A DNA stretch of 32,003 nucleotides from an uncultured Eubacteriales bacterium (GTDB taxonomy: Bacteria; Bacillota; Clostridia; Peptostreptococcales; Anaerovoracaceae): assembly GCA_900315895.1 (NCBI GenBank), contig ONAY01000018.1:1-32003 (forward strand), read 5' to 3'. Position 1 is the stretch's first letter, and the number at the start of each line of letters is the position of its first letter. The notes under the pieces were generated by a model. That model saw only the letters and a program-made list of their open reading frames with translations, ran no database searches and was not told the origin of the DNA. A program made the translations under genes and the position numbers. Of this stretch, positions 15,964 to 25,620 are shown piece by piece.

Positions 15964-16011
15964 TGGATCATTTGCTTCGAAAAAGTAATATAAAATGTAA
16001 TACAAAAAGTG

Positions 16012-16040
16012 TTGCGATGGCATGTGCCGAGAGGTATAAT
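16012..16040 (+). promoter_or_regulatory. Promoter of brnTA
   Basis: TTGCGA (16012-16017), 17 bases, TATAAT (16035-16040), ending 22 bases before the brnT ATG. BrnA normally represses its own promoter; a short operator may lie here but I cannot define it. Confidence 0.75.
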
Positions 16041-16062
16041 CAAATTAACAAGAGGGGGGAAT

Positions 16063-16338
16063 ATGGTTTTTGAATGGGACGAGGAGAAGAACAAAACCAA
16101 CCTGAAGAAGCATGGCATCGATTTTGAGACTGCAGCTTTTGTTTTTTGTGATAACGATCGATTGGAATATTATGATGAAGAGCACTCAACTTTGGAAGAC
16201 AGATTTATCACGATCGGAGAAATCAAAGAGGTGCTGATAGTACTGGTCGTTGTGTATACAGAAAGAAAAGAAGCAATCAGAATTATTTCTGCAAGAAAAG
16301 CTAATAATCGGGAAAGGAGAGAATACTATGGGCGTTAA
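16063..16338 (+). CDS. brnT: BrnT-type ribonuclease toxin
   Basis: A 91-residue toxin from the ATG after GAGGGGGGA. It begins MVFEWDEEKNKTNLKKHGIDF, the hallmark of BrnT (COG2929), continues with DRFITIGEI and ends with IRIISARKANNRERREYY, where the family's catalytic Arg/Lys/Tyr residues lie. BrnT is a RelE-fold ribonuclease that halts translation under stress. An upstream in-frame ATG (16009) would overlap the promoter and is rejected. It overlaps brnA by 11 bases. The pair is richer in A+T than the flanking genes, suggesting transfer. Confidence 0.92.
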   Translation: MVFEWDEEKNKTNLKKHGIDFETAAFVFCDNDRLEYYDEEHSTLEDRFITIGEIKEVLIVLVVVYTERKEAIRIISARKANNRERREYYGR

Positions 16339-16636
16339 AGAAATAGATTTGGACAAACCATTGACAGATGCACAGCAGACAATGCTTGAAGCATTAAAAG
16401 ACAGAGATGTCGATTATGATGAGGACTCTCCTGAACTGACGGATGCGGAACTCAAGCAATTCAGACGCATTTCCGAGATCCGAAGAGAAGAGAGGAGGAA
16501 GCAGACCGTGACAATTAGACTGTCACCCAAGGCATTAATGAAAGCAAAAGCGCTTGGCAAGGGCTATACCTCCATCCTCAGCAGAATACTGGAAATGGCT
16601 CTTGATGATAACGACATCATAAGGAAATGTCTGTAA
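16328..16636 (+). CDS. brnA: BrnA-type antitoxin
   Basis: A 102-residue antitoxin starting MGVKEIDLDKPLTD, with AAAGGAGAG just upstream inside brnT. The acidic N-terminal half (DVDYDEDSPELTDAELKQF) matches the toxin-binding region, and the C-terminal half (QTVTIRLSPKALMKAKALGKGYTS) is the ribbon-helix-helix DNA-binding part of BrnA. It neutralises BrnT and represses the operon in known members. It ends 10 bases before rarA. Confidence 0.88.
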   Translation: MGVKEIDLDKPLTDAQQTMLEALKDRDVDYDEDSPELTDAELKQFRRISEIRREERRKQTVTIRLSPKALMKAKALGKGYTSILSRILEMALDDNDIIRKCL

Positions 16637-19729: not shown

Positions 19730-19755
19730 AAAAAGCCCCGCATCGCTGCGGGGCT
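19730..19755 (-). terminator. Terminator of the opp operon
   Basis: Perfect stem AGCCCCGCA/TGCGGGGCT (19734-19755) followed on the minus strand by TTTTTCG, placed back to back with the plus-strand terminator. Confidence 0.9.
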
Positions 19756-19777
19756 TTCAACGTTTACAAGAGTTTAA

Positions 19778-21535
19778 TTACCAAACTCTGATGTCCTCGT
19801 TGATGTTCCAGCATACGTAGTATGTTCCGATCTGGCCGGCTACTACGAACTCATCAGGATAGTCAACCTTGAGGGCTGCCATCTCGTTGGTGGGAACGTC
19901 ATCGATGAACTTCCACTCGCCGTTCTTGAAGTTGGTGAGCATGTTGTTTGCATCATCACTCAGATAGAACTTAAGTGTGGGCATTGTAACTTCTGCTGCA
20001 TCGGGGTGCGCCTCATTCTTTGTAAGAGTGATGACACTGTTGTGCTCCCAAGCAGACATGGTGTACATTCCGTTGCAGACATATGTTGAAGGATCTGTGT
20101 TCCAGCCTTCGTTAGCAACTACATCTTCTCTTACGGGGAAGAATGTGGGGAATGCAAGAAGCTCGTTCCAGTAAGGAGCGTCATTTGCAAGTACGACCTC
20201 GAGAGTCTTGTCGTCAAGAGCGGTTACCTGGAGGTCGTTGGGATATCCTGCTACGTTCTCGAACATGTATCCATAGTCGAATCCGTTCTCTTCGTTAGCA
20301 GCTCTCTTCCATGCGAACTCGAAGTCCTTAGCTGTGACAGGCTGTCCGTCGGACCAGTTCATGTCGCGGATGGTGTAGGTGTAGGTGGTTGTTCCGTCTT
20401 CGTTGGGAACGCCCTCTACCAGCTCTTCAGCAGCATCGGGAACGATCTGGAAAACGCCGTTTTCATCCTGTGTCCACTTAGCAAGACCGGAGAACAGGTG
20501 AGCCAGCATTGTAGCTCCGTCAACTGCGGAGTTGGCTGCGGGGTCAAGTGTGTCGGGCTCGGAAGCGATGCAGACGTTCAGGGTGTCAAGGTTGTCTGTT
20601 GTTGTGGTGTACATGAAGTACTTGTAACCCAGGGGGTTAGCAAAGAATCCGTTTACTGTCTTGGAGACCATGTAAGGATCTGTGTAGTAGTAGATGGGGC
20701 AGATAGCTCCTGTGGACATGAGGAGGTCCTCAGCCTTGTGCATGAGGGCATAACGTGTCTCATCATCGGATGTGGACTTGATCAGAGAGATGAGGGGATC
20801 ATAGGTCTCAGCCCATGTTCCGTTCTCAACCTTGAGGTCGCAGCCAACGTCTGTGGTGTCAACGCTGTACATAGCAAGGTTAGCGTGGTTGCCCTTACCG
20901 AACTGTACGTCGTTGTTTCCGGAACCGGATGTCCACATGTCGAGGAAGCAGATAGGATCGTTGTAGTCTGCTATCCAGCCGTTACGTGCGATGGAGTAAT
21001 CGCCGGCTTTACGTGTGTTGAGGAATGTGTTCCACTCCTGGTTCTCCATCTCCATTGTGATACCAACGGATGCAAGAGCACTCTGGAGATATTCACCGAT
21101 AGCCTTGTGACCTTCACTTGTGTTGTACAGGTAGTGAAGTGTGGGGAAGTTGGTGAACTGCTGAGTGGACTCGTCCCAGTCATAGTACTTCTTCAGGATC
21201 TCGATGGCTTTCTGAACGTTTGCCTCGAAGTCATCAGGGTCAACGCTGTAATAGCCTTTTCCGCCGTTGGCATTCTGATAGAACTGAGAACCATCAGCAT
21301 CTGTCATACCCATGGCAACGAAGGTGTTTGCGGGAACCTGTCCTGCCTGGCCGATCTCTTCACAGATGTAGTTTCTGTCGAAGAGAAGGCTGATAGCCTG
21401 ACGGATCTCTGCCATCTTCATTTCGTCTTCAACGGTAACTGCGCCGGAGCCTTCTTCTCCGCCACCGCCGCCTCCGCAAGCTGCGAAGGTAAATACCATT
21501 GCGAAAATCAGAAGTACTGCTAAAAATTTTTTCAT
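19778..21535 (-). CDS. oppA: Peptide-binding lipoprotein, circularly permuted OppA
   Basis: A 585-residue extracellular solute-binding protein (SBP_bac_5 family) with a lipoprotein signal (FAAC, Cys20) and a poly-Gly linker. Its two halves are in reverse order. Residues about 36-310 are the part that is C-terminal in canonical OppA: IRQAISLLFDRNYI, LYNTSEGHKAIGEYLQ, NQEWNTFLNTRKAGDYSIAR, GWIADYNDP, CPIYYYTDPYMV, PLGYKYFMY. Residues about 317-580 are the canonical N-terminal part: LNVCIASEPDTLDPA, DMNWSDGQPVTAKDF, TDPSTYVCNGMY, FKNGEWKFIDDVP, ending at GTYYVCWNIN, which normally leads straight into the RQAISLLFDR helix. The frame is intact across the junction (about 20584-20608) and no key motif is lost. 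It is the last gene of the opp operon. Whether it folds and binds peptides is unknown. Confidence 0.93.
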   Translation of the reverse strand: MKKFLAVLLIFAMVFTFAACGGGGGGEEGSGAVTVEDEMKMAEIRQAISLLFDRNYICEEIGQAGQVPANTFVAMGMTDADGSQFYQNANGGKGYYSVDPDDFEANVQKAIEILKKYYDWDESTQQFTNFPTLHYLYNTSEGHKAIGEYLQSALASVGITMEMENQEWNTFLNTRKAGDYSIARNGWIADYNDPICFLDMWTSGSGNNDVQFGKGNHANLAMYSVDTTDVGCDLKVENGTWAETYDPLISLIKSTSDDETRYALMHKAEDLLMSTGAICPIYYYTDPYMVSKTVNGFFANPLGYKYFMYTTTTDNLDTLNVCIASEPDTLDPAANSAVDGATMLAHLFSGLAKWTQDENGVFQIVPDAAEELVEGVPNEDGTTTYTYTIRDMNWSDGQPVTAKDFEFAWKRAANEENGFDYGYMFENVAGYPNDLQVTALDDKTLEVVLANDAPYWNELLAFPTFFPVREDVVANEGWNTDPSTYVCNGMYTMSAWEHNSVITLTKNEAHPDAAEVTMPTLKFYLSDDANNMLTNFKNGEWKFIDDVPTNEMAALKVDYPDEFVVAGQIGTYYVCWNINEDIRVW

Positions 21536-21620: not shown

Positions 21621-22604
21621 TCAGCCGATCTCCTCTACCCTGTGGCAGGCAACGAAGTGGCCGGAGGATACCTCCTTGAACTCAGGCATGGTCTCTGCAC
21701 AGGCCTCTGTGGCATACTGACAACGGGTCCTGAAGGGGCAACCTGAAGGCGCATTCAGGGGGCTTGGAATATCTCCTGAGAGGGCGATCCTCTTGTTGGC
21801 CCTGGCAATCTTGGGATCCGGTACGGGAACTGCTGATATCAGCGACTTGGTGTAGGGGTGCAGGGGGTGATGATAGATCTCATCAGAATCTGCAAGCTCC
21901 ACCATCTTGCCCAGATACATTACCGCAATGCGGTCGGATATGTGTTTCACCACCAGAAGATCGTGGGCGATGAAGAGGTATGTCAGTCCCAGCTTGTCCT
22001 GCAGCTCATCGAACATGTTGATGACCTGAGCCTGGATGGATACGTCCAGGGCCGATACAGGCTCGTCGCAGACGATGAAGGAGGGGTTCAGAGCCAGGGC
22101 TCTGGCGATACCGATCCTCTGCCTCTGACCGCCGGAGAACTCGTGAGCATACCTGGCGGCGTGCTCGGAGTTGAGTCCTACGTGGCCCATGAGCTCCAGA
22201 ATGCGCTCCTGACGGGCTTTTTTATCCGTGTACATCTTGTGGATGTCCAGGGGCTCTCCGATGATGTCGCTGACCGTCATACGGGGGTTCAGAGAGGAAT
22301 AGGGATCCTGGAAGACCATGGTGGCTTTCTTCCTGAGATTCATCAGATCATCCTTGGTCTTGATCTCTTTACCCTCGAAGAAGACCTTTCCTCCGGTGGG
22401 CTGATAGAGATGAAGGATGGTACGGCCTACGGTGGTCTTGCCGCAGCCGGACTCTCCTACCAGTCCCAGCGTCTCTCCCTTGTTGATCTCGAAGGAGACG
22501 TCATCCACAGCCTTTAAGGGTTTGGTGGAAAAGAATCCTGTGCTGATATCGAAATATTCCTTAAGGTGTTCTACTCTGAGCAAAACTTCTTTCTCTTCAC
22601 TCAT
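21621..22604 (-). CDS. oppF: Oligopeptide ABC importer ATPase OppF
   Basis: About 327 residues from the ATG at 22604, which has AAAGGAGG eight bases upstream; an in-frame GTG nine bases earlier is less likely. Walker [11 protein letters not shown]-loop [11 protein letters not shown], signature [15 protein letters not shown], Walker [13 protein letters not shown], and the C-terminal oligopeptide_HPY extension with the Cys pattern [15 protein letters not shown]. It forms a heterodimeric ATPase with OppD. Its start overlaps the oppD stop by 8 bases. Confidence 0.95.
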
Positions 22605-23598
22605 TGGAAGCACCTCCTTTCTGCTGGTCCATCATTTCCTTCACATTGACCCAGCAGGCCGAGGAGTGATGTTCGTTTATCTCAACGAAGTCACAGGTCT
22701 GGGTGATGCAGATATGCATGGCGTCATCGCATCTGGGTGCGAAGGGACAGCCCTTGGGCATGTTGAGAAGGTCGATGGGTGTACCGGTGATGGGCTCTAA
22801 TTTTTTGCCCTCCATGTCCACTGTGGGAATGGATTTTAAGAGGCCCTTGGTATAGGAGTGGTGAGGATCGTAGAAGATGTCCTCTGCCGTTCCTCTCTCG
22901 CAGATGGAACCCGCATACATTACGATGATCTCGTCGCAGAGCTGAGCCACTACGCCCAGGTCATGGGTGATCATGATGATGGCCATTCCCAGCTGGTCCT
23001 GCAGGCTCTTCATGAGCTCCAGGATCTGAGCCTGGATGGTAACGTCCAGCGCGGTGGTTGGCTCGTCTGCGATCAGGATGTCCGGCTCGCAGGAAAGGGC
23101 CATGGCGATCATGACACGCTGCCTCATACCGCCGGAGAGCTCGAAGGGATACTGTTTCATCCTCTTCTCAGGCTCGTTGACGTTTACCAGCTTCAAAAGC
23201 TCTACCGCCCTGTCCCAGGCCTGCTTCTTGTCACGGTCTGTGTGGAGGGTGATGGCTTCTATAAGCTGGTGCCCCACTGTGTAGGTGGGGTTAAGGGAGG
23301 TCATGGGATCCTGGAAAATGATGGAGATCTTGTTTCCTCTTACGGTCTTCATGACCTTTTCACCGGCACCTACCAGTTCCTGACCGTCCAGTTTCACTGA
23401 ACCGCCGACGATCTTGCCGTTGGGGTCCAGGATCTGCATGATGGAATAGGCGGTGACGGATTTGCCGGAACCGGATTCTCCAACTATGCCCAGGACCTTA
23501 TGCCTGTCCAGACTGAAGGAGATGCCGTTTACGGCTTTGACTTCTCCTGCTGCTGTGAAGAAGGATGTTCTTAGATCTTTTACTTCAAGTAAAGCCAT
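22597..23598 (-). CDS. oppD: Oligopeptide ABC importer ATPase OppD
   Basis: A 333-residue ATPase with Walker A GESGSGKS at 40-47, [17 protein letters not shown], signature [15 protein letters not shown], Walker [13 protein letters not shown] and the C-terminal Cys motif [15 protein letters not shown] (in some homologues this binds an iron-sulfur cluster). Partner of OppF. It starts 15 bases after oppC with AAGGAAGGAGG before the ATG. Confidence 0.95.
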
Positions 23599-23613: not shown

Positions 23614-24678
23614 CTAGCGTCTCAGCTTGGGATCGAAAGCATCCCTCAAGCCGTCTCCGAAGAGATTCAGAGAAAGTACTATGAGCGAGATGATGATCGC
23701 AGGGATCACCAGTCTGTATGCGTATGAGTTGATTCCGTTCAGAGCGTCCGAAGCAAGGGATCCCAGCGAGGGCATGGGAGCGTTAACACCCAGTCCGAGG
23801 AAGGACAGATAGCTCTCGGTGAAGATGGCTGACGGAATCTGAAGAGCCGTGGAAATGATGATGACTGAGATGCAGTTGGGAAGCAGATGCTTCCTGATGA
23901 TCCAGCCTCCCTTGGCTCCTGCTGCTCTGGATGCCAGAACGTATTCCTGCTCCTTCAGGGACAGGATCTGTCCACGGATCAGTCTGGACATGGATACCCA
24001 GTACAGAACACCGAACACGATGAACAGCGAAATTATGTTGGCTCCGATCTTGGCCAGCACCGTTCCCTCTATGACAGGGGTCAGGGCCACCCTCATGACG
24101 GAGGCCAGAAGAATGACCATCAGCATGTCAGGAAGTGAATAGATGATATCCACTATCCTCATTATTATCAAGTCGACTTTACCTCCCAGATATCCGGAAA
24201 TAGAGCCTACCAGCATGCCGATGATGAGCACGATCAGGCTGGCGAAGAATCCCACAGCCAGGGATATCCTGGTGCCGTAGACCACTCGTATGAAGTAGTC
24301 ACGGCCTTGGGCATCCGTGCCGAAGATGTGGGGAAAGACCTTCTCGCCCGCATCGATATTCGCCTGCTCCGTCGCTCCGTACTCGAAGGGCCTCAGGTTG
24401 TTGTAGGAGTTATCCACCTGCTTTCCGGGAGCCACGCCCAGCATTTTGTCGTAAGAATACGGCCAGAACATGGGAACGAAGATCGCGGAAAGGGTGATAA
24501 CTATGATAACGATGATGCTGACTACCGCCACATCGTTCTTCAAGAGTCTTTTGAGACCGTCCTTGAAGAAGGTGGAGGACTCGCGCATCTGCACCATGTA
24601 TTCTTTTTCTTCGTCTGTGGCAGGAAGGAAAAGGTTCGGATCCTGCTGAAGACTTAAGATCTTTTGCTTATTGAACAT
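23614..24678 (-). CDS. oppC: Oligopeptide ABC importer permease OppC
   Basis: A 354-residue inner membrane protein. The N-terminal 45 residues are cytoplasmic, then follows a first membrane segment (VAVVSIIVIIVITLSAIFVPMFW), an extracellular loop of about 70 residues with HIFGTDAQGRDYFIRVVYGTRISL, and five further segments. The EAA coupling motif is SRAAGAKGGWIIRKHLLPN. Longer than many OppC because of the loop. Pairs with OppB; starts 12 bases after oppB. Confidence 0.94.
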   Translation of the reverse strand: MFNKQKILSLQQDPNLFLPATDEEKEYMVQMRESSTFFKDGLKRLLKNDVAVVSIIVIIVITLSAIFVPMFWPYSYDKMLGVAPGKQVDNSYNNLRPFEYGATEQANIDAGEKVFPHIFGTDAQGRDYFIRVVYGTRISLAVGFFASLIVLIIGMLVGSISGYLGGKVDLIIMRIVDIIYSLPDMLMVILLASVMRVALTPVIEGTVLAKIGANIISLFIVFGVLYWVSMSRLIRGQILSLKEQEYVLASRAAGAKGGWIIRKHLLPNCISVIIISTALQIPSAIFTESYLSFLGLGVNAPMPSLGSLASDALNGINSYAYRLVIPAIIISLIVLSLNLFGDGLRDAFDPKLRR

Positions 24679-24690
24679 CCTCGCCCCTCC

Positions 24691-25620
24691 TTACTCCAGA
24701 TTTATCCTCGGATCAGCCACCTTGTACAGGATGTCACTGATCAGGTTCATTATCACGATCAGGGTGGCCAGCACGATGGTGGTGCCCATGATCAATGGAT
24801 AGTCTCGGTTGGTTATGCTGTTGACGAAGGCACGCCCGATGCCCGGGACAGCGAAGATCTGCTCAACCACAAGGGATCCTGTGACGATGTAAGCCAGCAT
24901 GGGTCCGAAGTAAGTGATGACAGGGATCAAGCTGTTCTTCAGAGCGTGTCCGAAAATGATCATGGCTCCGCTTACGCCCTTTGCCTTTGCGGTCCTGATG
25001 TAATCCTGGCCCAAAACATCCAGCATGGAAGATCTGGTAAGTCGGGTGATATAGCTCATGGGATAGAGTCCGAGGCTTATGATAGGTAGAATAAGTCCTT
25101 TGGCGGTCTCGCCGTTGGCGGGCAGCCATCCCAACTTAACAGAAAACAAGATGAGCATCAGAGACCCTATGATGAACGTCGGCATGGAGATCAGCGCTGT
25201 GGTGAGGACCATGATACATTTATCAATGAATTTGTTTCTCCGAAGTGCGGCCACAGACCCAAGGATTATGCCGAAGAACGCAGCGAATACGGCTGCGATG
25301 ACTCCCAGCTTGACCGATGTCCTGAGACCGTCAGTGATCACGTCGATGACCATTCTGCCCCTCTGTTTGAGGGAGGGACCGAAGTCAAAGTGCAGCGCTA
25401 TGTCCTTAAGGTAGGTCACATACTGTACGAACAGAGGCTTGTCTAACCCGTACTTGGCCTCCAGAGCAGCCTGCGCTGCCGGAGTTATGGCCTTCTCGCT
25501 CATGAATGGTCCGCCGGGGACTGCACGCATGACGAAGAAGGTCAGGGTGATGACCACCCATACGGTAAGTACTGCAAGGACCAGTCTCTTAAGGATATAG
25601 GAGACATTCTTTTTGCTCAT
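24691..25620 (-). CDS. oppB: Oligopeptide ABC importer permease OppB
   Basis: A 309-residue permease with six membrane segments. N-terminus YILKRLVLAVLTVWVVITLTF, the ALEAKYGLDKPLFVQYVTYLKD segment typical of OppB/DppB, and the EAA motif RTAKAKGVSGAMIIFGHALKN. First gene of the operon, with AAGGTGA before the ATG and a promoter about 100 bases upstream. Confidence 0.94.
   Translation of the reverse strand: MSKKNVSYILKRLVLAVLTVWVVITLTFFVMRAVPGGPFMSEKAITPAAQAALEAKYGLDKPLFVQYVTYLKDIALHFDFGPSLKQRGRMVIDVITDGLRTSVKLGVIAAVFAAFFGIILGSVAALRRNKFIDKCIMVLTTALISMPTFIIGSLMLILFSVKLGWLPANGETAKGLILPIISLGLYPMSYITRLTRSSMLDVLGQDYIRTAKAKGVSGAMIIFGHALKNSLIPVITYFGPMLAYIVTGSLVVEQIFAVPGIGRAFVNSITNRDYPLIMGTTIVLATLIVIMNLISDILYKVADPRINLE

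Follow-up and report, generated by a model that had tools for sequence, protein, structure and literature searches.

A putative OppA-type receptor with circularly permuted order in an uncultured Eubacteriales bacterium, and its rotated relatives

Introduction

At the end of an apparent oligopeptide-importer operon, an uncultured Eubacteriales bacterium carries a gene whose product has the two parts of an OppA-type binding protein in reversed order. Is this a natural circular permutation of a working receptor, an assembly artefact, a decayed copy, or a chimera of paralogues, and does it stand alone in its family? The protein shares with the family-5 binding proteins OppA and DppE (SBP_bac_5, PF00496; B. 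subtilis 8are, Salmonella 1b05) homology over nearly the whole mature chain, oppBCDF partners, and conserved motifs. It differs from these canonical receptors in that its parts are reversed, the old ends are fused, and the new ends lie behind the hinge strand. We take the OppA/DppE family to be the class named cluster C. A sequence-only reading of the locus had proposed a viable circular permutation, and this is also the best reading of the data below: with a probability of roughly 0.92, the gene would encode a functional, natural circularly permuted OppA-type lipoprotein, the putative receptor of the upstream OppBCDF importer.

Results

The permuted oppA closes an opp operon

The window, by which we mean the whole stretch of DNA analyzed, is 32,003 nucleotides long. 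Its permuted oppA (hereafter the window gene) is read from the minus strand, 21535..19778, as the single open frame that had been claimed for it, 585 aa from ATG to TAA. The features of the operon are as follows.

24691..25620, minus strand: oppB, permease, 309 aa, first gene of the operon (ORF list; gene order as in relatives)
23614..24678, minus strand: oppC, permease, 354 aa (ORF list; gene order as in relatives)
22597..23598, minus strand: oppD, ATPase, 333 aa (ORF list; gene order as in relatives)
21621..22613, minus strand: oppF, ATPase, 330 aa (ORF list; gene order as in relatives)
19778..21535, minus strand: permuted oppA, 585 aa, stop included (ORF list, Pfam)
21476..21535, minus strand: lipoprotein signal peptide, residues 1-20, lipobox C20 (read from the sequence, FAAC)
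20609..21412, minus strand: canonical C-terminal part, now first, residues 42-309 (PF00496 213-367; 1b05 289-441 and, weakly, 445-504)
20585..20608, minus strand: link TTTTDNLD from old C-terminus to old N-terminus, residues 310-317 (sequence; model)
19793..20584, minus strand: canonical N-terminal part, now last, residues 318-581 (PF00496 2-209; 1b05 21-276)
19730..19757, minus strand: terminator-like hairpin behind oppA, GC-rich and followed by a T-run (read from the sequence)

The names oppB, oppC, oppD, and oppF are those that we presume from the sequences. The genes follow one another as oppB-oppC-oppD-oppF-oppA, with intergenic gaps of 12, 15, -17, and 85 bases and oppA last. This order is common to the window-type, beta (L053-L059), gamma, and canonical loci, as far as their flanks permit (the rotations are defined below), in keeping with the normal operon position attributed to the gene. 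The ribosome-binding-site-like sequence AAAGGAAGG stands ahead of the ATG, and the protein begins with a Gram-positive-type export signal and lipobox, both read from the sequence. As in the OppA family, presumptive oppBCDF importer genes lie beside it. Leaders resembling its signal peptide also occur elsewhere in the source genome. Sequences like the functional-looking signal and ribosome-binding site described earlier can both be read here; the terminator described with them can be read by eye as a hairpin, which a pattern scan for terminators did not place among its sites (six terminator-like sites in the region against a shuffle mean of 5.5, no excess).

The source genome is 86.9% complete in 56 contigs and contains three SBP_bac_5 genes, the window gene being the only one found on contig C31. 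The other two are located at C17:62836-75172, in canonical order and near their own oppB-like genes; one has an ORF of 756 aa. Because the operon order is shared with relatives and these two genes lie near oppB-like genes of their own, we regard the window protein as the probable functional receptor for its importer. Elsewhere in the window, at 16009-16636 on the plus strand, two small overlapping ORFs may represent a BrnT/BrnA-type toxin-antitoxin pair.

Both parts match canonical receptors in exchanged positions

A Pfam hmmscan detects PF00496 in the window protein with E = 3.7e-56 and 191.3 bits, against a cut-off of 32.4, in two stretches: the better one aligns residues 364-579 to profile positions 2-209, and the other aligns residues 39-208 to positions 213-367. 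Scanned singly, the downstream part again matches 2-209 (E = 6.9e-31) and the upstream part 213-367 (E = 2.1e-26). By homology the protein is a member of PF00496, its sole Pfam match at E up to 1, and it departs from the canonical profile order. The claim of swapped halves, for which separate alignment of the parts had been named in advance as the check, is borne out by these reversed coordinates. In NCBIfam, none of the seven permuted proteins scanned rose above any model's cut-off.

Aligned to Salmonella OppA (1b05), query residues 325-575 correspond to 21-276, 44-212 to 289-441, and, weakly, 244-302 to 445-504. The best stretch falls in its canonical position in 42 of 43 PDB matches; the remaining match, to the 229-residue chain 3o6p, is limited to one part. 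For four solved chains, the swap was checked residue by residue. The cut falls behind WNINED and ahead of EIRQAIS, which places the new ends in the loop that follows the hinge strand (OppA ~276-289). Both the link TTTTDNLD and the cut before RQAIS are as the sequence-only reading had described them.

The chain is predicted to form an ordinary receptor with a displaced anchor

An AlphaFold2 (AF2) model of the window protein, computed from 64 aligned rows of which 40 were parts of canonical relatives entered as separate rows, has a mean pLDDT of 89.5 and a pTM of 0.87, with pLDDT 91 in both residues 301-310 and 311-320. A model of the beta protein L056 is only fair (pLDDT 78.3, pTM 0.73). The first four Foldseek matches of the window model are OppA and DppE chains; the top match, B. 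subtilis OppA (E = 8.2e-21), covers 259 columns, about one half, with a TMq of 0.38. Matches confined to one half are what a permuted order would lead one to expect of an aligner that keeps chain order. DppE and OppA give the best matches in sequence as well as in structure, and the protein does not have the cluster B sugar-binding fold.

In canonical OppA, the chain crosses between the lobes twice. By the usual domain limits, the cut of the window protein (alpha, below) would remove one covalent crossing and leave the hinge strand as a C-terminal tail. The permuted chain would fold to an ordinary two-lobe receptor, binding peptides in the cleft and docking on OppBC as usual, and its lipid anchor would now sit on the C-terminal lobe.

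The permuted order is conserved in independent assemblies

A search of relatives for the same order, as the earlier reading had suggested, found it in most of the genus and beyond. Of the six other genomes of the genus, five contain a full-length match with its parts in this order (88-96% identity); in the remaining one, G003, the only protein found is canonical and 35-42% identical. Among 230 relatives, we classed chain order at the 79 best loci, giving 23 loci with the order of the window, 7 with another rotation, and 49 canonical. One of the 23, L060, lies on a contig that begins inside the gene and was omitted from later trees. The same junction and the same new ends recur in six close relatives (83-96% identical), whose records bear the titles reindeer, RUG, Tb.RUG, and RGIG goat. 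The dN/dS ratio is 0.07-0.22 in each part against five of six close relatives compared, the sixth (L038) being saturated at silent sites; such low values indicate that the window gene is kept by purifying selection.

These data bear on three rival explanations. An assembly error that misjoined or collapsed tandem oppA copies would also give a false order; it was the main alternative raised by the sequence-only reading, and the source assembly is indeed fragmented (56 contigs), with tandem canonical copies occurring in a relative, L068. However, the junction and new ends are the same in the six close relatives, and other permuted genes of the family occur in single-contig genomes (G199, G305, G484, G1005). 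Because independent assemblies of several species carry the same junction, we reject misassembly with near certainty. A decayed or non-functional rearranged copy is scarcely easier to defend: one distant beta-type gene, that of G1180 (L244), is split by an in-frame TGA, but nothing of the sort is seen in the window gene, which combines a full-length frame and dN/dS of 0.07-0.22 with a conserved operon place and is the sole SBP_bac_5 gene found on its contig.

The third explanation, a chimera in which parts of different paralogues were fused in reversed order, is a little less remote and still improbable. Twenty canonical relatives, all of one subfamily, are about equally close to both parts (65-75% identity for the N part, 67-76% for the C part), and in a comparison with 98 canonical rows, identity to the N part and identity to the C part of the window protein co-vary with a Spearman coefficient of 0.85. 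That the two parts rank the canonical relatives alike speaks for a single source gene, and a permuted, functional OppA-type receptor is the reading with which we proceed.

Three rotations occur across the family

With the canonical chain written as N, C1, C2, C3, the cut of the window protein (alpha) yields C1-C2-C3-N; beta, at loci L053-L059, yields C2-C3-N-C1; and gamma, in genomes G178, G032, and G077, yields C3-N-C1-C2. On OppA 1b05 the cuts fall at ~276-289 (alpha), ~355-359 (beta), and ~441-445 (gamma). With domain III of OppA taken as 271-486, each of the three cuts belongs to the C-terminal lobe, and alpha comes directly after the hinge crossing.

When 197 family genomes were searched with the junction segment as query, the match spanned the junction in nine: five of the genus of the window (source included), three gamma, and one divergent alpha-like genome (G105). 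We then drew more widely with a junction profile, A4 (32 rows, 175 positions), counting as spanning any match from position ≤14 to ≥174. Spanning matches occurred in 16 of 393 genomes of the order (E 1e-25), 9 of 391 of the class (1e-25), and 9 of 398 of the phylum (1e-20); the draws overlap, leaving 29 different genomes in all, and the E-value limits make these counts lower bounds. As a control, A4 spanned the junction in five of five known permuted genomes and matched in two pieces in three of three canonical ones. Candidates in G601, G045, and G386, with matches beginning at 42, 47, or 58, proved canonical. A locus from each of the 29 genomes was checked with an HMM built from 73 canonical proteins, and a permuted open frame was present in 28. 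The exception is the interrupted beta-type gene of G1180 (L244, G1180:C1:902000-908000), a single-contig genome, in which the in-frame TGA reflects either decay or a sequencing error. A beta protein searched within its class proved well conserved there: it matched in 7 of 17 genomes at E 1e-25 with the query's own counted, and the other six matches were full length and 64-96% identical.

Alignment of 174 family ORFs to the canonical HMM gave 117 canonical and 57 permuted chains, namely 35 alpha, 18 beta, and 4 gamma; the sample was chosen by search, and counts obtained from permuted queries are not prevalences. Among the canonical ORFs, three genes are counted twice owing to differently cut loci, and L074/L076 are near-identical; by the same check, no permuted gene is counted double. 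In canonical HMM coordinates, the alpha cut ends at 269-279 in 34 proteins and begins at 269-289, an end at 246 belonging to L050, a gene truncated by the end of its contig. The beta cut ends at 331-373 and begins at 364-382, and the gamma cut ends at 466 and begins at 490-495. All cuts are thus found within ~269-495, the C-terminal lobe, and none in the N-terminal lobe, a pattern that rests on three cut loops and hence on a small sample. Cuts over most of the N-terminal lobe would have been met by the A4 profile as well, which is blind to those inside its own stretch (roughly the initial 100 and final 70 positions of the chain). Judged from these alignments, circular permutation is recurrent in family-5 proteins, well beyond the single case first noticed.

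Several permuted genes deserve mention for their setting. Importer genes are present in 10 of 12 regions around divergent permuted genes, on the opposite strand in one (L234). G337 has three alpha-permuted family-5 proteins (L231, L232, L233), of which only L232 lies beside importer genes; there are none near L231 and L233. Alpha-permuted oppA genes also occur in MAGs titled Coriobacteriaceae (L046, L047, L049, L051, L052), a family that we take to belong to a phylum other than that of the window; transfer or mis-binning may account for these. In Pfam, the gamma protein L145 (G032:C34) matches SBP_bac_5 as one ordinary stretch, residues 188-587 to positions 3-367, so that domain annotation has a blind spot and can miss the gamma rotation.

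A lipid anchor is usual in permuted proteins and sometimes absent

A simple pattern finds a lipobox-like motif in 40 of 45 permuted proteins (L060 left out). Four of the remaining five, L147, L162, L163, and L166, seem to have a lipobox by eye, and L178 has none. Beyond these 45, no clear lipobox is found in L206, L212, L219, L220, L227, and L243. Five of these, the beta-permuted L206, L219, L220, L227, and L243, start (AAKPLPK...) right behind a signal without a clear lipobox and, judging by these N-termini, are perhaps secreted without a lipid anchor. A general role of permutation in relocating the lipid anchor was considered and dropped: with seven permuted proteins devoid of a clear lipobox, anchoring is not the general reason.

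The permutation arose several times, probably by duplication and fusion

In an unrooted tree of 81 thinned rows, chain order changes between canonical and permuted nine times, and seven of these changes are forced by well-supported branches. Six changes concern alpha (five forced), three beta (three forced), and one gamma. On the sequences compared, the strict floor is three events, one per rotation. We infer at least five in all, a count taken on an unrooted tree and including the long branches L147 and L188: one each for the subfamily of the window, the gamma clade, the alpha clade L155-L166, L188, and a divergent group made up of beta, alpha, and one canonical row, L046_8139.

Within the subfamily of the window, free trees do separate alpha origins. 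We claim no separate origins there because the AU test rejects neither a single alpha clade (19 of 61 rows, p = 0.685) nor a single alpha-plus-beta clade (23 rows, p = 0.778); both constrained trees scored better than the quick free tree. The beta rows L053-L059 form two groups in one tree and one group in three others, and a starred branch joins the clade of the window to a canonical gene in one tree and not in the 81-row tree. With trees that disagree and single clades that are not rejected, the number of events in this subfamily is unsure. The links between old ends also bear on this point. In the subfamily, all six beta links shown read TT(V/I)(D/E)GK, 12 of 17 alpha links outside the clade of the window read TT(V/I/L)xG, and those of the clade itself read TTT(T/S)D(N/K)LD. 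Their similarity hints at a shared fusion, weakly so because TTI or TTV is also how many canonical chains end.

Since a secreted protein must keep its signal, the simplest route to such chains is tandem duplication followed by fusion. The two copies of oppA would be fused in frame, the first N part deleted behind the signal peptide of the first copy, and the second C part lost; different trimming of one such fusion could yield alpha, beta, or gamma. Tandem canonical oppA copies exist in the relative L068, from a record titled Ruminococcus. The second of them (L068:7894-9912) has a possibly dockerin-like N-terminal stretch with two DxDGDG-type repeats. Judged by ORF length, no fused double ORF was seen among the matches listed, all of which are shorter than 700 aa except two weak ones of 762 and 823 aa, and a search for duplication remnants within the window gene gave only three chance-like repeated 12-mers.

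Discussion

The sequence-only reading had held that no natural permuted OppA was described. For OppA itself this stands, as no published case was found in the literature searched, which mostly excludes subscription papers; a permuted receptor of another class, however, has already been reported. As far as the available text of that paper goes, TpMglB-2 (Tp0684) of Treponema pallidum is a naturally circularly permuted, bilobed lipoprotein that serves by attribution as the receptor of an ABC importer (PMC4990184). It was shown to bind glucose, and homologues were noted in gut Gram-positives (Brautigam et al. 2016, PMC4990184). The name Type Ic or cluster Bc was suggested for it, and an adaptation to tethering was raised as a possibility (PMC4990184). 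On what these texts contain, TpMglB-2 is the nearest described case found, in another fold class. Like the window protein, it has a natural permuted order relative to canonical binding proteins. It differs in being a sugar receptor of fold cluster B with one permutation, a moved part that matches poorly, and a fourth lobe crossing gained, whereas the window family belongs to family 5, has three cut places and canonical relatives 65-76% identical, and in alpha would have lost a crossing. Permuted halves of the ribose-binding protein of Thermotoga maritima also involve permutation of a binding-protein scaffold, but in the text available these halves of a sugar-binding protein were studied for fold evolution and not as a whole natural permuted receptor (PMC9815098). 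In the accessible portions of two further papers, PF00496 appears in a table and a permutation paper is cited (PMC2588589), and circular permutation and oligopeptide-binding protein stand in unrelated places (PMC2265533).

What the recurrence means is less certain than the permutation itself. It could be real and neutral: loops would tolerate new ends, tandem duplication would supply them often, and nothing would be selected. The same operon context for permuted and canonical genes, export signals that vary among permuted forms, and the recurrence of alpha and beta cuts all fit this explanation, to which we give about an even chance. Against it stands the confinement of the cuts to the C-terminal lobe (HMM ~269-495), with none in the N-terminal lobe, although three loops are a small sample. 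More tentatively, family-5 proteins may be under recurrent selection on their chain ends. They would have been permuted at least five times in Bacillota (a phylum taken from the titles of the window's relatives), at three C-terminal-lobe loops. The export signal, and in most cases the lipid anchor, would thereby be removed from the N-terminal lobe, and in alpha a single covalent crossing would hold the lobes together, altering opening and docking on the importer. We regard this possibility as somewhat doubtful.

Natural circular permutations are seldom available alongside closely related unpermuted proteins. This receptor family provides three cut places, canonical relatives 65-76% identical per part, and the same operon partners. 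With it one can test how a secreted protein permutes and yet keeps its signal peptide, how a two-lobe receptor behaves with a single covalent hinge, and whether ABC importers are affected by relocation of the anchor, as was conjectured for TpMglB-2 (PMC4990184). G178 carries a canonical and a permuted receptor at opposite ends of a single operon: locus L144 (G178:C8:9000-20000) is an operon-like run of canonical oppA, then oppBCDF, then gamma-permuted oppA.
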